From positions 1-51,937 of IMG/VR virus record IMGVR_UViG_3300042922_000712: a stretch of 51,937 nt of DNA. The stretch is one strand, 5' to 3'. Positions 9,295 to 31,939 of this stretch are shown piece after piece (the first letter of the stretch is position 1; each line of letters opens with the position of its first letter). Made by a program: the position numbers and the translations under genes. The notes under the pieces are model-generated. The model was not told the origin of the DNA and searched no databases. It was given only the letters and a program-made list of their open reading frames with translations. The DNA comes from a virus.

Positions 9295-10410
9295 TTATAT
9301 AAATTTTATTGTATCTTTTATATTTTCTTTTAATTTATTAATAAAAATATGAGTTAATAATATTCCTATTTTTGTCAAATTGCAATTATTATATACTTTA
9401 TCAAAAGTATCATTTTCTGGATTGTATATTTGAGCAAAACATTTTCTGCAAATACTATTAAATCTACATTTATTACATTTAGCCGATTTTATTTTTTCTA
9501 AATTTGCATTAATTTTATTTATATCCAATCCAGTATCAACATGACCTATAGCAAATTTATTAATATTATTACTTGCTAATATCTGGCATGGATATATATC
9601 ACCGCTTGGATGTATGCATATTGTATATCTTGCAAATGAGCAGTTAAATAATTTTTTATAATTATTTTTTTTATCATAGTCATAATAATTTAAAGGTTTA
9701 AATAAATTTTTTATCGCAATTGTAAACTCTTTATTATCCATTATTAACTCATCTATGATTTTGCTCACTTGCATCTTGACACTTCTAGCATCGTCTTTAG
9801 AAAAATAAGCACTGCCATTTACATTAACTCCTATTGCTCTGGTTTTTAAAGTATTAAGCTGAAATGATAATATATCATATAGATCATCTACATTATTATT
9901 AGATAGAGTTGAATCAACTCTATCTATATTATATTTTTCTTGTATCCATTCAAAGTTAGAAATTACGTCATTAAATGAACCACAATTATTTTTATACATC
10001 CTATTTTTATCATGAATATTTTCTGGTCCGTCTAGGCTAAACCCAATAAAAAATGGATATTTATTTAAAAAATCTTTAACTCTTTTAGTACTAACTAAAG
10101 TGCCATTAGTGCTAGCCATAAAGCTAAAATTATTTAACCAATGATGGTTATACTGTTTAGCTTTATGAAAAAATTGTTCAATTGTATATTCTATTAGATC
10201 TAATTCGACGAATGGCTCCCCTCCAATAAAATTTAATTTAATTTCGTCCCTATCTTTAGTATATGGAGAAGTAAATAATATGTCTAAATATTTATCAATA
10301 TTTTCTTTAGTATTTACTACTTCCCTTTCTCCATCGACGTAACAGTAGTTACATTTAAGATTGCACCTATTACTGGTATAAATATAGCTATTTAATTTAT
10401 CATATTTCAT
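9295..10410 (-). CDS. Radical SAM/SPASM enzyme coupled to the cysteine-array protein
   Basis: The start is the ATG at 10408-10410 (MKYDKLNSYIYTSN), which overlaps the TGA of the cysteine-array gene as ATGA. The 371-residue protein has CNLKCNYC (C16, C20, C23), FIGGEPFVE, and a SPASM-like C-terminus with HPSGDIYPC, CNKC, CRKC and a terminal NNCNLTK. It is highly similar to the gene at 7555. Tight coupling to a CX3-repeat protein suggests it forms thioether or other crosslinks in that tail. This is inference from context. The reaction type cannot be read from the sequence. Confidence 0.85.
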   Translation of the reverse strand: MKYDKLNSYIYTSNRCNLKCNYCYVDGEREVVNTKENIDKYLDILFTSPYTKDRDEIKLNFIGGEPFVELDLIEYTIEQFFHKAKQYNHHWLNNFSFMASTNGTLVSTKRVKDFLNKYPFFIGFSLDGPENIHDKNRMYKNNCGSFNDVISNFEWIQEKYNIDRVDSTLSNNNVDDLYDILSFQLNTLKTRAIGVNVNGSAYFSKDDARSVKMQVSKIIDELIMDNKEFTIAIKNLFKPLNYYDYDKKNNYKKLFNCSFARYTICIHPSGDIYPCQILASNNINKFAIGHVDTGLDINKINANLEKIKSAKCNKCRFNSICRKCFAQIYNPENDTFDKVYNNCNLTKIGILLTHIFINKLKENIKDTIKFI

Positions 10411-10793
10411 TGCGATCCACATCCAGCACAACTCGTAGTGCAGCTTCCGCTACAATGAGTATAACATCCAGTTTGACACGTACCAGTACAATTTCCAGAA
10501 CAAGGATCTCTATAATTTACTATAGTAGTATTCAGTGTACCAATTTTACTATAAATATCTGTATCAGTGTTAATTAAATCTGTTATTTTTGCCCATAATG
10601 CGTTATCCCCATTTATTCTAGCTTGAGCTTCTGCCGTATCACCAGCTATTCTAGCTTGAGCTTCTGCCGTATCACCAGCTATTCTATCTTCTATTTCTGC
10701 ATATAATTCTATTTTCGTAGCTTTAGAATTTATTAAATTTTGCAAAGATGGAGCCAATTCATCATATGTAATTTTATCTTCTGCGAGAAACAT
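10407..10793 (-). CDS. Fibre-like protein with C-terminal CX3 cysteine array, probable radical SAM substrate
   Basis: The protein has 128 residues. Residues 5-20 carry the recurring EDKITYDELAPSLQNL motif of the phage's small fibre-like proteins. Residues 38-62 contain two exact 11-residue repeats (IAGDTAEAQAR) and a diverged third copy, probably a trimeric coil. The tail has eight cysteines at 98, 102, 106, 110, 114, 118, 122 and 125: six CX3 steps and one CX2. This resembles CXXX-repeat targets of radical SAM maturases. The stop codon overlaps the start of such an enzyme. I infer that the tail is crosslinked and displayed on the virion. Disulfides or metal binding are alternatives. Confidence 0.8.
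   Translation of the reverse strand: MFLAEDKITYDELAPSLQNLINSKATKIELYAEIEDRIAGDTAEAQARIAGDTAEAQARINGDNALWAKITDLINTDTDIYSKIGTLNTTIVNYRDPCSGNCTGTCQTGCYTHCSGSCTTSCAGCGSQ
10615..10680 (-). repeat. Two perfect 33-bp direct repeats in the cysteine-array gene
   Basis: Positions 10615-10647 and 10648-10680 are identical and encode the 11-residue coil repeat. Exact identity at DNA level means recent duplication or conversion. A third, diverged copy lies on either side. Confidence 0.9.
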
Positions 10794-25932: not shown

Positions 25933-26982
25933 TCACTCTCCACAATATAATTTTCTTTCAATATTACGAATTTTACATGGCTGAGATGCTTTGTACTCGA
26001 ATGTATCTCCAGCTCTATATGGTATTAATCTAGCACATTCGATACAATGTAAATTTCCACAATTAACATGATTACACTGATCGCAATTTATACAATTATT
26101 TATATTAATACTTTCTATTTTAGAATGGTCATACTGCTGAGAGATATCATCAAAATCAATGCTTGGCGGTTTATACTTATATCCATTACTATATGATCCA
26201 CACGGTAGTATCTTACCATATACGTCTATTTCTATAGAATTATATAATGATCTACACCATAGACGTTTTTTGGTTGTATTAGTGCTGTAGAATTCTGGCA
26301 TTGAGTTTATATTGAATATATTAATTCCATTACCATTATATTTATAAAGAGAATTTAATTCTTTTTCGAATATATTTAGAAAAATAGGATCTCTATATTC
26401 ATCGTTATCTATAAGAAAATAATACTCCCAATTAGAACATCCGCAATCTATAAGATATTCTATAGATTCCTTTTGATGAGATAATAATGTAGAGGTTAAA
26501 GCAGACCTAATTAGAATATCATCTTTATATTTAGATTTTCCTATCGATTCAATTGCTTTATTAAATAAAATATCATTATATTTTAAAGATTTAGATTCTC
26601 GTATATTCGAGCCAAATATTCCATCCCAACTCATGCTTGTATATTTTGGATCTAATATTCCTCTGTCTAATAAATCTAATATAGCTTCTATATTAGACCC
26701 ATTTGTATACAGCCCGAATTTTACATTAGTATCTTTATATCGTTCTATCTTTTTAAGTTTACTATAAGCCGTTTCTATAAGATTTGGAAACAAACTTAGT
26801 TCTCCGCTAGATACATTTATAAGTACATCTTGAGCTAATGGTGCATCTATTAAAAATTTCAGTAGATCGTCAAACCTACTGAATCTATCGTTTGACTTTC
26901 TAGCATCTTCAGTCAAAAAACAATACTTGCAAGATAAATTGCAAGTATGTAATAAATGTAGATTTATCCAATTTATGCTCAT
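25933..26982 (-). CDS. Radical SAM/SPASM-like enzyme with altered GGE motif
   Basis: The 349-residue protein has CNLSCKYC (C14, C18, C21). Where its paralogue at 21315 has VTGGEPSLF it has VSSGELSLF, so the first glycine and the proline of the GGEP motif are changed while the glutamate stays. The C-terminal cysteine cluster is strong: VYGKILPCGSY, NCINCDQCNHVNCGNLHC and a final PCKIRNIERK. The start overlaps the upstream stop as TAATG. It may have reduced or altered SAM binding. The substrate is unknown. Confidence 0.8.
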   Translation of the reverse strand: MSINWINLHLLHTCNLSCKYCFLTEDARKSNDRFSRFDDLLKFLIDAPLAQDVLINVSSGELSLFPNLIETAYSKLKKIERYKDTNVKFGLYTNGSNIEAILDLLDRGILDPKYTSMSWDGIFGSNIRESKSLKYNDILFNKAIESIGKSKYKDDILIRSALTSTLLSHQKESIEYLIDCGCSNWEYYFLIDNDEYRDPIFLNIFEKELNSLYKYNGNGINIFNINSMPEFYSTNTTKKRLWCRSLYNSIEIDVYGKILPCGSYSNGYKYKPPSIDFDDISQQYDHSKIESININNCINCDQCNHVNCGNLHCIECARLIPYRAGDTFEYKASQPCKIRNIERKLYCGE

Positions 26983-28013
26983 TAAATATCACCCAATTTT
27001 TTATAATAATTATTCAGATATGATTTGTACGATATGATAATATTCTGCAATCTATATTTATCAGCTGCACTTAAATCATTTAAAAACTTCTGTATAGTAT
27101 CAGCATATATCTTAACTACTTTACAGGTACTTTGCAAATAATATGCTTGCCAATCGTCACCATATTGATTATATCTTTCGTATCTACATCCACCATCGCA
27201 TAGCCATGAATATTTACATTTTATACAATCTTCATGCACACATGATTCTTGTACAGTTTGTAAATCAAATTCTTTTCTTTCTTGACTTAGAGCAGTACAT
27301 AAACTTTCATTACCATACGGATCTATAGTTATATATTTCCCAATATCACAACTAGCGAAAGTTTTATCCATGTTTATATAGGCAATTATTTTATTTAGAT
27401 GATCTGAGTACATCTTGTCCAAGTCAAATGTGAGTGGCAATTGTTTGGATAACTCATTATAAAAGTCTTGGGTGTATAGATCTCTATGAGCTATAACAAA
27501 TTGCCCACTTACTCCATATTTTTTTAACTCTTTAAATTTTTTATGAATATCATACATATGGTGGACGTTATTATTACTAATAACTGTTTTTATATCGAAC
27601 TCCAACCCACATGATATAGCGTACTCTATATTTTTATAAACTTCAAATGATATAGTATCACCCACAATATTAACTCTATTAGAATTGAATCCATCCCATG
27701 ATAATTGTATCTCATTTAATGGATATTCTTTATTAAACTCTATAAATTCTTTAAAATTTATAGATGTTGAAGTTACCACTTGAAATTTAATTTTTCTATA
27801 ATATTTTTTTACTATCTCTTGCATAAGATCTAATCTTACTAAAGGCTCACCTCCAAAGAATAAGATTCTTTGTGGCTTATATTTCTTTATTTTTGCATCT
27901 ATCATTTCTATAGACATACTACTAGGATTAGCCCTGTTGCGAATATAACAATATTCGCAACGATTTGGGCAAGATTCTGTCAGGAGTAAATATAATTCAG
28001 TATAATTGATCAT
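26982..28013 (-). CDS. Radical SAM/SPASM enzyme
   Basis: The start is the ATG at 28011-28013 (MINYTELYLLLTESC), overlapping the TGA of the HNH gene as ATGA. An ATG two codons earlier lies too close to the GGGAG site. The 343-residue protein has CPNRCEYC (C15, C19, C22) and an intact FFGGEPLVRL near residue 54. A SPASM region includes DPYGNESLC near residue 240, then CIKC, CDGGC and a final STCKVVK. It is the middle radical SAM gene of operon 2 and probably acts with its neighbours. The substrate is inferred to be the cysteine-rich protein at 29009. Confidence 0.85.
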   Translation of the reverse strand: MINYTELYLLLTESCPNRCEYCYIRNRANPSSMSIEMIDAKIKKYKPQRILFFGGEPLVRLDLMQEIVKKYYRKIKFQVVTSTSINFKEFIEFNKEYPLNEIQLSWDGFNSNRVNIVGDTISFEVYKNIEYAISCGLEFDIKTVISNNNVHHMYDIHKKFKELKKYGVSGQFVIAHRDLYTQDFYNELSKQLPLTFDLDKMYSDHLNKIIAYINMDKTFASCDIGKYITIDPYGNESLCTALSQERKEFDLQTVQESCVHEDCIKCKYSWLCDGGCRYERYNQYGDDWQAYYLQSTCKVVKIYADTIQKFLNDLSAADKYRLQNIIISYKSYLNNYYKKLGDI

Positions 28014-28882
28014 GACCATTCTCCCTTTAGGCTAGCTCTAATAGTATAAATTGTTCTATATAAGGAATCTAATCTATCTGTACTAGCAATATATTCTCTC
28101 CCATTCATAATAGCAAATATTTCTTTATCAGTTTTTTCTTGATAAATATATTTTTTGATTGTTTCTTTTTCTTCTTTAGAATAAGCATGTTTTTTACTAC
28201 TTCTATCAAAATTATACTGGCTAGAGATATGTCTCCAAGTATATCCACCACGAATGTCTCTAAGAAGAGTATGATTAGAATTATTTAGCTCCATACCAAA
28301 CCAGTTCATGATCTCAGTATTTGATTTACCTTTCTGAAACTCTTCACACAAATACCTAACGAAATTCTCATTAACAATTGGACGTTTATTTACAATGAAA
28401 GTATTTGTGCCATTATAAAATTCCCTAGCATGTTGATTATTAGCAGCAACTGTAACCCACTCAAGATTATTAGCAAAATTATTACGCTTATTTGTATCGA
28501 TATGATTAACTATTCTATTTGCGAAATCAATTGGCGGATTACAGAATTGATATGCAACAAGACGATGCACTAGAAACTTCTTACCACCAGCAACAGTTTG
28601 TAAAGTAACAGCCTGATAGTCACTATCAGCATCAGTATCATAATTAGTTAATATTACACGAGTAGTTGCGTTAAATATTATACCTCTAGTATTAATTAAA
28701 TACATACCAGGCTTAACCCCAGGGTATGTAATATATTGAAGCGCTTCGAAGAACTGCACAGGAACTAAAGAATACTGTCTTTCGATACCATCGCTATTGT
28801 TGTACTGTGAAGCAGGAATATTATTCTTATTCCTGCTATCAAATGGTACTCTCTCTACTATTGTCATCAATCCATTGCCCAT
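28010..28882 (-). CDS. HNH homing-type endonuclease
   Basis: The 290-residue protein contains FLVHRLVAYQFCNPP near residue 103, followed by VNHIDTNKRNNFANNLEWVT near 123. This is the classic HNH signature (His, then NH.D..K.NN...NLEWVT), preceded by a NUMOD4-like segment. The C-terminus has a helix-turn-helix-like region (SNTEIMNWFG and a second copy NREYIAST). Such enzymes are mobile genes that cut DNA at or near their own insertion site. It sits between the cysteine-rich gene and the radical SAM genes and interrupts that operon. It is not inside a visible intron. Confidence 0.85.
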   Translation of the reverse strand: MGNGLMTIVERVPFDSRNKNNIPASQYNNSDGIERQYSLVPVQFFEALQYITYPGVKPGMYLINTRGIIFNATTRVILTNYDTDADSDYQAVTLQTVAGGKKFLVHRLVAYQFCNPPIDFANRIVNHIDTNKRNNFANNLEWVTVAANNQHAREFYNGTNTFIVNKRPIVNENFVRYLCEEFQKGKSNTEIMNWFGMELNNSNHTLLRDIRGGYTWRHISSQYNFDRSSKKHAYSKEEKETIKKYIYQEKTDKEIFAIMNGREYIASTDRLDSLYRTIYTIRASLKGEWS

Positions 28883-29008
28883 TTTAATAGTCTCCCAGCA
28901 TATTTATTTTAGCAATAACTCATTGCTATTATAAATATGTAAGTCCAATATTTTTTGATTTGGTCTAGATGCATCCCAAACATTCACAACCATGATCTCT
29001 TTCCACAA

Positions 29009-29992
29009 TTATGACCATCCCCCACAATTTTGATTATGGCAAGTTCCACCATAGCAGCTTTGACATGATAACATGCAAGGTTTCTGACATGATACTTGGC
29101 ACGTTCTGCTACAACTGCCATTTGGATTCCACCAATCCTTATATGAATCTAGTGCTTGAGAAATGAGTCTTAAATTTGTAGCTATTGCTATAAATGTACT
29201 TGCATATATAATATCGCCTTTATTTACAGACGGTACAGCGTCTCCAGAAATAGATCCAGGAACTACTACGACTGCCTGTCTTTGAGTGCTACTGCATACC
29301 CAAACATATCCAAGATCTTCAGAAGAGCTTTCGCTTTTCCACCCATATTGTTTAACTCTATTAGGGCAACTTATAGATATATTACCACATAGCCTTTCAG
29401 AAAGACTAGTATCTGGAGTTTCTATTTCTGGACCTTCTTTAAATATTTGCTTTTTTGTTACGGTATAATAAGTTGGGTTTCCGTTTGCATCTAATACAGG
29501 AATAGGATTTCTAAATCCTGGAATCATAACAGCGTTTCCGCTAGCATCTACAATACCAACTCCAGTTACAGGATTTACCTTTTGCTGATCCAAGACTACA
29601 ACTTCTGCCTCTACTTTTATTATAGTATCTTGATATGGATAAGTGCATGTAATAATAGTCAGTTGACTAGAAGCTCCTCCGCACGTTCTTACCATTTCAT
29701 TGGTATATTTAATTACAGTATTTACATATGATGCATATATAGGAACGTCTACGCCTATAGACGCTCTTACTGTACTCATTTCATTTTCTTTAGCCGGATC
29801 TATAATACCGCTAAGTTGTTGTAATGGAGTACCATAGTTATCAGGATTGTTCATAATACGGTTTATAGAATCTCTTTCATTCATAGTTACCAATAATACA
29901 GAAAGTAAATATGATGTATCGGTTGCTAAAATTGCGTCTCCTCTAGCAACATCTTTAGGTTCTGTATATACTACGACTCCTCTATTAGCCAT
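29009..29992 (-). CDS. Virion-like protein with C-terminal eight-cysteine array, probable radical SAM substrate
   Basis: The 327-residue protein has an all-beta-looking body (PTVNKG-type loops, YVWVCSSTQRQAVVVV) without a known enzyme fold. It ends in a Gly/Cys-rich tail with cysteines at 294, 298, 302, 306, 310, 313, 318 and 323: four CX3 steps, then CX2, CX4, CX4. The first radical SAM gene of the operon overlaps it by eight bases. Number and spacing of cysteines parallel the protein at 10407, although the N-termini differ. I infer radical SAM crosslinking of the tail. Disulfides are unlikely in the reducing cytoplasm but possible on the virion. Confidence 0.75.
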   Translation of the reverse strand: MANRGVVVYTEPKDVARGDAILATDTSYLLSVLLVTMNERDSINRIMNNPDNYGTPLQQLSGIIDPAKENEMSTVRASIGVDVPIYASYVNTVIKYTNEMVRTCGGASSQLTIITCTYPYQDTIIKVEAEVVVLDQQKVNPVTGVGIVDASGNAVMIPGFRNPIPVLDANGNPTYYTVTKKQIFKEGPEIETPDTSLSERLCGNISISCPNRVKQYGWKSESSSEDLGYVWVCSSTQRQAVVVVPGSISGDAVPSVNKGDIIYASTFIAIATNLRLISQALDSYKDWWNPNGSCSRTCQVSCQKPCMLSCQSCYGGTCHNQNCGGWS

Positions 29993-31364
29993 TAATATTC
30001 TCCTTTCTGTCTAACTTTTTAGTCATCTCATCTAAGCTAACACCTTTCTTAGATAATTGATACGCTAAAATTATAGAAATCTTCGAATCTATATACTGTT
30101 TAAATGTAGGAAGAATGTTCTTTTTCCCAAGATTATCAACCATTTCCTTTAAATGCATAATTCTTGTAGTAAGAGTAAGACTATCATCTAGATCTGTCTC
30201 GCTATACAAAATATCTACATATTGCTTTAGTTTAAGATTTTCTTTTAAAAGATTAATCATCCTGTTTCTAATATTAGAAGCATTCATTAATTTTTCTCTG
30301 TATTTCAGAACTGCTTTAACTAAGGCAATGCTTGTTTTACAATGCCCAGATGATGGCTCATCATATATTCCAGTTTCTCGCATGTTTTGAGTTGGGCATC
30401 CGCCTTTACAAATAGATTTCCCAATACAATTATTACATTCTTCTTTTGGATATGATGCATGTATATCTTCTTTATTTAATTTAGTTTCATCCACTCCAGT
30501 ATAAAGATTCCCAATATATAAATCATCTTTGAATTTCTTTTCTGAAGTTGGTCCTTGATGGCATGGGTAGATATCTCCATTGGTATCGAATGCGCACCAT
30601 CTGTTAGAATAAATAGGACACATGATTGGATCGTCTATTTCTGGCTCTAAAACATTAGTTAAAATCTCATCTGTATTCTTAATAGAAATATTACGCTTAA
30701 TTGTATCATCATTTAACAAATCAACATAATACTCCATTAGCTGTTTATAATAATATTCTAATCTCATAGTATGTACAAAATCCCACTCAACGTCTGTTAC
30801 TGGCATTGGGCAGATATTATCAATACCCATATCGATAAGCATTTTAATACCATTTAATGCGTATTCTACATCTTCTGGAAGTATCGTCATTCTAGCTTCT
30901 ACAAATATAGCGAGCTTTCTATCTATAAGCTTTTTAAGATTAGAGTGCACAATATCAAAACTATCGCATCTATTTTTATCATGCACATATTTAATCCCAT
31001 CAATACTTACTAGCATCATAATAGAATTATCATCTATATATTCGAGCATTTCATCTGTAAGAATGGTAAGATTGGTAGTAATTCCATATCTCACTTTATA
31101 TTTCTTTTCATTACAATGATCTATTAATGCTTTGATAGTTTTCCAATTTAATAATGGCTCCCCTCCAAAAATATTAATAGTGAAATCGCCTATAGATTTA
31201 TCTACTTCCCTATATGATGCATCTATAATATCTATTGCAGTTTGAGGACTCATCATTTGCTCATTCTTATCATGCTCAAAACAATAAGAGCAATTAAGAT
31301 TACAATTATTTGTCACATTAATTGTAATAGAATCGCAGTTATATACCTCTTTGAATTGTTTCAT
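29985..31364 (-). CDS. Radical SAM/SPASM enzyme coupled to the eight-cysteine protein
   Basis: The 459-residue protein is the longest radical SAM gene here. It has CNLNCSYC (C21, C25, C28), INIFGGEPLLNW near residue 64, and a full SPASM region: CAFDTNGDIYPCHQGP near 250, then CNNC, CKGGCP and GHCKTS. Its layout is like SPASM peptide maturases and anaerobic sulfatase-maturating enzymes. A C-terminal helical extension (residues 365-459) is unique within the window. The stop overlaps the start of the cysteine-rich gene by eight bases, which marks the likely enzyme-substrate pair. Confidence 0.88.
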   Translation of the reverse strand: MKQFKEVYNCDSITINVTNNCNLNCSYCFEHDKNEQMMSPQTAIDIIDASYREVDKSIGDFTINIFGGEPLLNWKTIKALIDHCNEKKYKVRYGITTNLTILTDEMLEYIDDNSIMMLVSIDGIKYVHDKNRCDSFDIVHSNLKKLIDRKLAIFVEARMTILPEDVEYALNGIKMLIDMGIDNICPMPVTDVEWDFVHTMRLEYYYKQLMEYYVDLLNDDTIKRNISIKNTDEILTNVLEPEIDDPIMCPIYSNRWCAFDTNGDIYPCHQGPTSEKKFKDDLYIGNLYTGVDETKLNKEDIHASYPKEECNNCIGKSICKGGCPTQNMRETGIYDEPSSGHCKTSIALVKAVLKYREKLMNASNIRNRMINLLKENLKLKQYVDILYSETDLDDSLTLTTRIMHLKEMVDNLGKKNILPTFKQYIDSKISIILAYQLSKKGVSLDEMTKKLDRKENING

Positions 31365-31375
31365 CCTATTTCCCC

Positions 31376-31648
31376 CTATTTAAATCTAATAGCATTTCCG
31401 TTCCATGTTCCATTGTGATAGGACTCTAATATATTAGTTTGAGAATTTAGATTTAGATTCTTTTTCTCTGTAACAGCAGTTGGTCTATTTTGACCTATAG
31501 TAACAGTAATATCATTAACTCTACTATTTATATCTATAGCTTTTTCATTTATAATATTAAATGCATCTTTAGAAGATGAATTGTCTAGCATATTTTGTAA
31601 ACTAGGAGCCAATTCATAATAAGACAAATTAATTTTATCAGTAGTCAT
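31376..31648 (-). CDS. Small ELAPSLQ-motif fibre-like protein
   Basis: The 90-residue protein begins MTTDKINLSYYELAPSLQ, followed by a helix and a short beta domain (LNLNSQTNILESYHNGTW) that resembles the ends of the proteins at 31661 and 13014. The start follows AGGAGGTATT. It lies 12 bases upstream of the radical SAM start, in the same operon. It is probably a virion component that shares a docking motif with the cysteine-array protein at 10407. Confidence 0.65.
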   Translation of the reverse strand: MTTDKINLSYYELAPSLQNMLDNSSSKDAFNIINEKAIDINSRVNDITVTIGQNRPTAVTEKKNLNLNSQTNILESYHNGTWNGNAIRFK

Positions 31649-31660
31649 TTCTAATACCTC

Positions 31661-31939
31661 CTATGAATAAACTCCACCTGTTGGTTTCCATGCATTGTGA
31701 TATGAATATACTGTATTATTAGCAGTAGATACCAAAATCTCTCTATCGTTTTGTGGATTTGCTACATTAGCCCCACTATTAGCTATACTAATTCTATTAG
31801 ATCCTAACTGAGCTGTTAATTTAGTTAGCATTGCATTACATGTATTATACTGCTCTACTGTGGCTTTGTCTCTAATTAGTTGCTGTAAACTAGGAGCCAA
31901 CTCATTAAAAGTGACTTTATTTTCTAAATTAAATGCCAT
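31661..31939 (-). CDS. Small ELAPSLQ-motif fibre-like protein
   Basis: The 92-residue protein begins MAFNLENKVTFNELAPSLQ, has a helix to about residue 50 and ends in a small beta region (REILVSTANNTVYSYHNAW). It has a good AAAGGAGGT site and is the first gene of operon 2. Both this and the next gene resemble the protein at 13014, so the same two-part fibre element precedes both radical SAM loci. Confidence 0.65.
   Translation of the reverse strand: MAFNLENKVTFNELAPSLQQLIRDKATVEQYNTCNAMLTKLTAQLGSNRISIANSGANVANPQNDREILVSTANNTVYSYHNAWKPTGGVYS

Follow-up and report, generated by a model that had tools for sequence, protein, structure and literature searches.

A phage-borne radical SAM module that may modify a cysteine-glutamine tail on phage structural proteins

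The known targets of radical S-adenosylmethionine (radical SAM, rSAM) maturation are short peptides and a small number of enzymes. PapB is described as making Cys-Asp S-C-beta bonds at Cys-X3-Asp sites, and QhpD as making thioethers within a protein subunit rather than on a free peptide (PMC8172795). Here we analyse a 51,937-base virus record from IMG/VR (the window, i.e., the whole stretch of DNA under study), which contains six rSAM genes above the Pfam cut-off. In one of its loci, locus 2, the gene of an rSAM/SPASM enzyme (rSAM-A) overlaps that of a protein, p327, with a C-terminal tail rich in Cys and Gln; two further kinds of rSAM enzyme (rSAM-B and rSAM-C) and an all-helical partner are encoded nearby. 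We consider it probable, at roughly 0.6, that these proteins form a phage-borne module in which rSAM-A, with rSAM-B, rSAM-C and the partner, modifies the Cys-Gln tail of a phage structural protein, likely by crosslinking its Cys residues.

The eight C-terminal Cys residues of p327 (294-323, the first five at CX3 spacing) and the 8-base overlap between its gene and the upstream rSAM gene had been pointed out in the original prediction, and both were confirmed. The eight-Cys tail is not a product of chance, because five Cys at CX3 spacing occur four times in the window (three overlapping matches in a second Cys-tail locus, locus 1, and one in locus 2) versus 0.00 times across 100 shuffles, and because the binomial probability of eight or more Cys in 34 residues is 7e-8. 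Among the 65 called genes, both tail genes of the window encode eight Cys in their last 40 residues versus four in the next gene.

A strict pattern, C...CQ..CQ..C...CQ.C, matched 33 stretches in viral_contigs and 41 in genome_contigs, both scans being complete; eight of these 74 stretches also carry an H.Q..G end, with duplicate tails in L302 and L317 and in L189 and L266. The tails, of 32-34 residues, terminate proteins of 198-534 residues and are 42-75% identical to one another, whereas the bodies are 17-38% identical; tail identity is partly imposed by the nine columns fixed by the search pattern. Outside these columns, H26, Q28 and G31 are present in all eight tails and Q14 in seven, and the mean identity over 22 columns is 0.46. 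Low-complexity drift was ruled out as the origin of the tail, since the bodies differ while the tail is kept. Some bodies of the locus 2 family are related through an N-terminal YTIP segment (G024 versus the window, E = 2e-10), and a second body type is common to G010, G021 and G022. The arrays differ in length, from 6-8 Cys up to tens of them, but keep their start and end. A rumen Bacilli protein (L337 p344), for instance, begins its array with DDNGRCKTSCQ, continues with a long CQxxC run and has CQSCHGGTCH near its end; an rSAM-A fragment adjoining this array is 46% identical to the rSAM-A of the window. To judge from these sequences, the Cys-Gln array can grow.

Once the window and G332 are counted in and the duplicates set aside, the tail is found in eight records (the window, G002, G010, G020, G021, G022, G023 and G332), of which G002 has two tail genes. 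G020 is the complete genome of Pelosinus fermentans JBW45 (NZ_CP010978.1), where the module lies in a prophage, and a second Negativicutes prophage also carries it. In all eight modules an rSAM-A orthologue directly precedes the tail gene, the two overlapping by 8, 17, 40, 11, 1, 1 and 74 bases and, in one case, being separated by a 9-base gap. Enzymes of the rSAM-B and rSAM-C clades are present in seven of the eight (that of G332 rSAM-B in an open frame outside the called genes); in the remaining record, G022, the two stretches read (L317 and L368) showed rSAM-A alone. The helical partner, a module member that had previously been overlooked, likewise occurs in seven of the eight modules, and left-one-out hidden Markov models (HMMs) recovered the eight partner proteins tested at E of about 1e-13 or better.

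Co-occurrence of enzyme and tail was assessed from both sides. An rSAM gene lies in the fetched stretch for seven of the eight arrays with the H.Q..G end versus five of the 66 without it (Fisher p = 3.3e-6). The sole exception among the former, L302, is a 7-kb fragment that starts inside the tail gene; the five rSAM-bearing stretches among the latter (L329, L337, L338, L352 and L360) are genuine CQ arrays, and two more CQ arrays, L314 and L316, with an rSAM gene within ~2 kb were left out of the count. Starting from the enzyme, the rSAM-A profile matched two of 380 Negativicutes genomes at E 1e-60, the seed Pelosinus and the new G332, in which an eight-Cys tail directly follows rSAM-A, between it and rSAM-C. 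Every rSAM-A orthologue encountered was accompanied by a tail, the enzyme-first sample amounting to one new genome. Outside the Negativicutes the enzyme-first searches added no further case (0 of 392; 1 of 296, which was the seed; and 0 of 391), although the sets of 392 and 391 contained no known positive at the threshold and hence show little. Alignments of two rSAM rows gave six distant loci, several of them on records with 8-11 rSAM genes; clade C gave none. Two scans, one for the CX3x7 pattern, gave at least 120 loci each, all 240 listed loci being read; the listed CX3x7 matches were mostly low-complexity sequence. In a retest of the CX3x7 set, two arrays had an rSAM gene out of 5, 4 or 3 depending on the threshold (p ~1e-3) and none of one at the strictest (p = 1); neither outcome is relied on. 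The original prediction linked the rSAM enzymes to the Cys-tail protein as their substrate, and named the loss of the tail beside enzymes conserved next to the same bodies as the refuting case. The pairing held in the eight modules, one of them that of the enzyme-first genome, the refuting case was not encountered as far as the comparison could be run, and the predicted enzyme-substrate link is thus supported at the level of sequence.

In a tree of 28 enzymes, the rSAM-A (8 rows), rSAM-B (7) and rSAM-C (9) proteins form one branch each, with supports of 100/100, 100/96 and 100/100. The motifs that define the rSAM/SPASM superfamily, CX3CX2C and C..GX4C, are each intact in all 24 of these rows. 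The full SPASM motif, CX2CX5CX3C, is present in 8/8 rSAM-A, 5/7 rSAM-B and 0/9 rSAM-C rows, and seven of the nine clade C rows have an alternative CX4CX4CX2C spacing. In G021 rSAM-C (L367:10120-11793), an intein-like insert, identified by eye, interrupts CX3CX2C at the position of the third Cys. The best family match of all three enzymes of the window is NF047865 (PapB), at 196.6 bits for rSAM-A, 55.3 for rSAM-B and 66.3 for rSAM-C, and the Pelosinus rSAM-A scores 208 bits. The SCIFF family TIGR03974 gives 125 bits with rSAM-A, missing the cut-off of 425. QueE- and sulfatase-type enzymes were ruled out, as their scores are lower than that of PapB.

Taken together, a phage structural protein would bear a portable Cys-Gln tail of 32-34 residues at its C-terminus, and rSAM-A, from a gene that overlaps or abuts that of the tail protein, would act on this tail, while rSAM-B, rSAM-C and the helical partner would assist or modify further positions. 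The product would be Cys crosslinks within the protein, most probably thioethers like those that the related enzymes PapB and QhpD form, joined to Gln or another nearby residue. The tail would presumably be retained on the protein, which may be located at the tip of the phage tail, and the crosslinks would stiffen its exposed end and confer resistance.

Several observations weigh against this scheme. The three enzymes of the window all fall below the curated cut-off of NF047865 (340 bits), and rSAM-A also misses those of its second-best family, the QhpD-type TIGR03906 (141.9 bits; cut-off 453), and of the CXXX-repeat enzyme TIGR04115 (96 bits; cut-off 350), which the locus 1 enzymes miss as well (140 and 125 bits). 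The Cys-X3-Asp acceptor of PapB (PMC8172795) is not reproduced: position +4 is mostly occupied by another Cys (73 cells among 10 tails), and Asp does not rank among the top eight residues at +1, +4 or +5. The predicted structure of p327 was unusable (predicted local distance difference test score, pLDDT, 31). Long Cys arrays occur on three records with no rSAM match (G017, 141 kb; G018, 36 kb; G019, 9 kb), and ~70 kb separate the array of G001 from its rSAM cluster. Finally, in G010, G021 and G022 the module stands beside a non-tail gene.

Some of these points would suit a tail that holds a metal, an iron-sulfur cluster or disulfides while the rSAM enzymes act otherwise on the virion or the host. 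Eight Cys and a conserved His would suffice as ligands, the final two Cys are missing together in G002_p521, as a ligand pair or bridge would be, and the arrays on G017-G019 have no rSAM partner on record; yet the invariable position of the tail gene directly after rSAM-A, an array that ranges up to tens of Cys, which is odd for a fixed metal site, and best-scoring enzyme families that are peptide and protein maturases make this explanation unlikely. We regard radical chemistry without crosslinking, for example if the Cys-Gln repeats were epimerised or methylated, as about equally improbable: SPASM-type enzymes catalyse several reactions and the repeat unit is CQ (Gln at +1 of Cys in 66 cells among 10 tails) and not the CX3D of PapB, but the best-scoring relatives make thioethers.

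A different target is conceivable among the proteins next to the module. If rSAM-A acted on a neighbouring fibre, the Cys-tail protein would be a carrier, scaffold or sulfur donor, and in four cases (the window, G002, Pelosinus and G332) the module does adjoin ELAPSLQ or collar-fibre proteins with a common C-terminal domain. This is quite improbable given G010, G021 and G022, where enzyme and tail are kept with no such neighbour. Least probable in our estimate is a tail that serves as a precursor end, like those of ribosomally synthesized and post-translationally modified peptides, and is cleaved after modification to give a free signal or antimicrobial peptide. The enzymes resemble maturases of such peptides, but the tails terminate long and varied proteins, the Pelosinus module sits within the phage tail region, and no peptidase or exporter gene was noticed in the modules when read by eye (no tool was run for a leader or cleavage site).

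With modification of a retained Cys-Gln tail as the preferred explanation, the gene neighbourhoods bear on where the protein might act. The genes of the Pelosinus prophage run Baseplate_J, Tail_P2_I, tail-collar fibre, rSAM-A, Cys-tail protein, two rSAM-C, rSAM-B, partner and a 1375-residue tail fibre, followed by a small protein and the endolysin. The Pelosinus collar fibre has a C-terminal domain in common with the ELAPSLQ proteins found in the window and in G002 (E 2e-6 to 3e-12), and the G332 module is flanked by fibre-like proteins, as judged by eye. The gene beside the module in G010, G021 and G022 is one that we take to be thyX-like. A tail-fibre role is therefore well grounded for some carriers only, because fibre neighbours in Pelosinus and G332 stand against the non-tail neighbour in these three records.

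Table 1. Features of loci 1 and 2 in the 51,937-base window.
Locus	Feature	Coordinates	Strand	Remarks
2	ELAPSLQ small protein, 92 aa	31661..31939	-	C-terminal half resembles end of Pelosinus tail-collar fibre (E 2e-6)
2	ELAPSLQ small protein, 90 aa	31376..31648	-	
2	rSAM-A, radical SAM/SPASM enzyme, 459 aa	29985..31364	-	CNLNCSYC at 21; full SPASM motif
2	Cys-tail protein (p327), 327 aa	29009..29992	-	Tail Cys 294, 298, 302, 306, 310, 313, 318, 323
2	Conserved C-terminal tail of p327, 34 codons and stop	29009..29113	-	
2	HNH_3 gene, homing-endonuclease-like, flanked by tail gene and rSAM-B	28010..28882	-	PF13392, E 1.2e-8
2	rSAM-B, 345 aa, CPNRCEYC	26982..28019	-	54% identical to G002_351
2	rSAM-C, 349 aa, CNLSCKYC, variant SPASM spacing	25933..26982	-	
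2	All-helical partner, 377 aa	24794..25927	-	Left-one-out HMM E 1e-21; model pLDDT 70
2	Second clade C rSAM, 388 aa	21315..22481	-	Placed by tree; 52% identical to G332 clade C enzyme
1	ELAPSLQ protein with 8-Cys tail, seven Cys CX3-spaced (p128)	10407..10793	-	
1	rSAM, 378 aa as listed	9295..10431	-	
1	Small protein between the two rSAM genes, 199 aa	8681..9280	-	No hit to the family of the 377-aa partner
1	rSAM, 374 aa	7555..8679	-	

The gene order of locus 2 (Table 1) largely agrees with the earlier description: the ELAPSLQ pair precedes the tail gene and two rSAM genes follow it. The HNH_3 gene that intervenes had escaped notice; it is probably not part of the module's function. The three rSAM genes then recognized are present, but the module has four, the additional one being a second clade C member. 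The model of the partner had no PDB match under E 0.001 and its profile none to PDB sequences; weak TPR-like matches were not used. Elsewhere in the window, the protein at 34614-36218 matches a propeller of the virginiamycin B lyase type (E 4e-27) and carries an ELAPSLQ-like DLDPNLQ motif; it may be a fibre.

A single-protein search found no close relatives of the window proteins in IMG/VR, and the two locus 2-type Cys proteins tried had no match in named phages. rSAM-A matched 77 named-phage records; among the 40 listed, the best identity was 36% over a quarter of the protein and none covered 80% of it. rSAM-B matched a single record at 25% identity.

Locus 1 had been taken for a locus with the same parts. 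The ELAPSLQ motif, the Cys tail and the rSAM genes are indeed shared, but its enzymes pair off as a clade separate from A, B and C, and its 199-residue protein does not belong to the partner family. The two Cys proteins do have unrelated bodies, as noted earlier: BLASTP of p128 against p327 aligned the Cys tails only (E 0.003). On sequence grounds, locus 1 is a parallel case and not a copy of locus 2, because its enzymes form a separate clade.

Cys arrays near rSAM genes were also found in the virus records L011, L105, L108, L110, L179, L274 and L304, among which L274 (412 bits) and L108 (386 bits) pass the TIGR04115 cut-off. In L304 (10359-11189) the array is followed, by eye, by a Hint-like sequence, with an rSAM gene downstream; in L179 (14943-15762; G003), the rSAM genes of a phage with ELAPSLQ proteins of its own enclose two small Cys/Asn/Gln-rich proteins. 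G017 (L265) encodes several consecutive Cys-array proteins. Virus records G005, G006, G008 and G009 (L181-L183 and L185-L188) have 8-11 rSAM genes that are of a different kind, and the stretches read contained no Cys tails comparable to those described here. Cys-Gln arrays in bacterial or archaeal proteins (L329, L338, L352, L360 and L330), one with an fn3 match, have an rSAM gene adjoining or in the same genome. The pairing of Cys arrays with rSAM enzymes may thus be a principle wider than phages.

A bolder and more tentative extension, which we hold to be less likely than not, is that the tail is a portable Cys-Gln tag for any structural protein, which radical SAM enzymes of three kinds would tie into a tail-tip adhesin or armour with covalent crosslinks other than disulfides, with locus 1, the CXXX-repeat phages and the bacterial and archaeal Cys-Gln arrays as independent uses of the principle. 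If the proposed modification is correct, phages install radical-made crosslinks in their own structural proteins, an unusual viral means of toughening a part of the virion, with the full enzyme set travelling with phage genes and one tail sequence. It would also supply protein crosslinking with a portable tag of natural origin, and explain why several rSAM genes are carried by some phages. The complete-genome strain Pelosinus fermentans JBW45 offers a testable substrate. Our literature search turned up no report of phage tail proteins being modified by rSAM enzymes, which is weak evidence of novelty, most subscription journals lying outside the search.

Among known systems, the phage CX3-array family phrog_6085 has similarly long CX3 arrays and matches L110 p147 (E 1e-37), L274 and L011; it differs in matching the locus 1 protein weakly (E 0.086) and the locus 2 protein not at all. 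The nearest solved structure to the rSAM-A profile is the SCIFF maturase 5wgg (E 9e-43), which we take to be CteB, and SCIFF peptides are short, unlike the target in the window. The CXXX-repeat system (TIGR04115/TIGR04114) shares Cys at every fourth residue beside an rSAM maturase, whereas the locus 2 tail is short, CQ-based and closed by a fixed CH.Q.CG end, and is joined by clades B and C and the partner; neither p327 nor p128 matched the TIGR04114 target repeat at E 0.01. PapB, the best family match of the locus 2 enzymes, likewise has a Cys-rich target, but that target is a short peptide rather than the end of a phage protein of several hundred residues, and it is served by one enzyme clade instead of three. 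QhpD shares with the proposed module rSAM/SPASM crosslinking of Cys within a protein subunit (PMC8172795); its target differs in being a small enzyme subunit, the gamma subunit of quinohemoprotein amine dehydrogenase, with Glu and Asp as acceptors, where the module described here would act on phage proteins.

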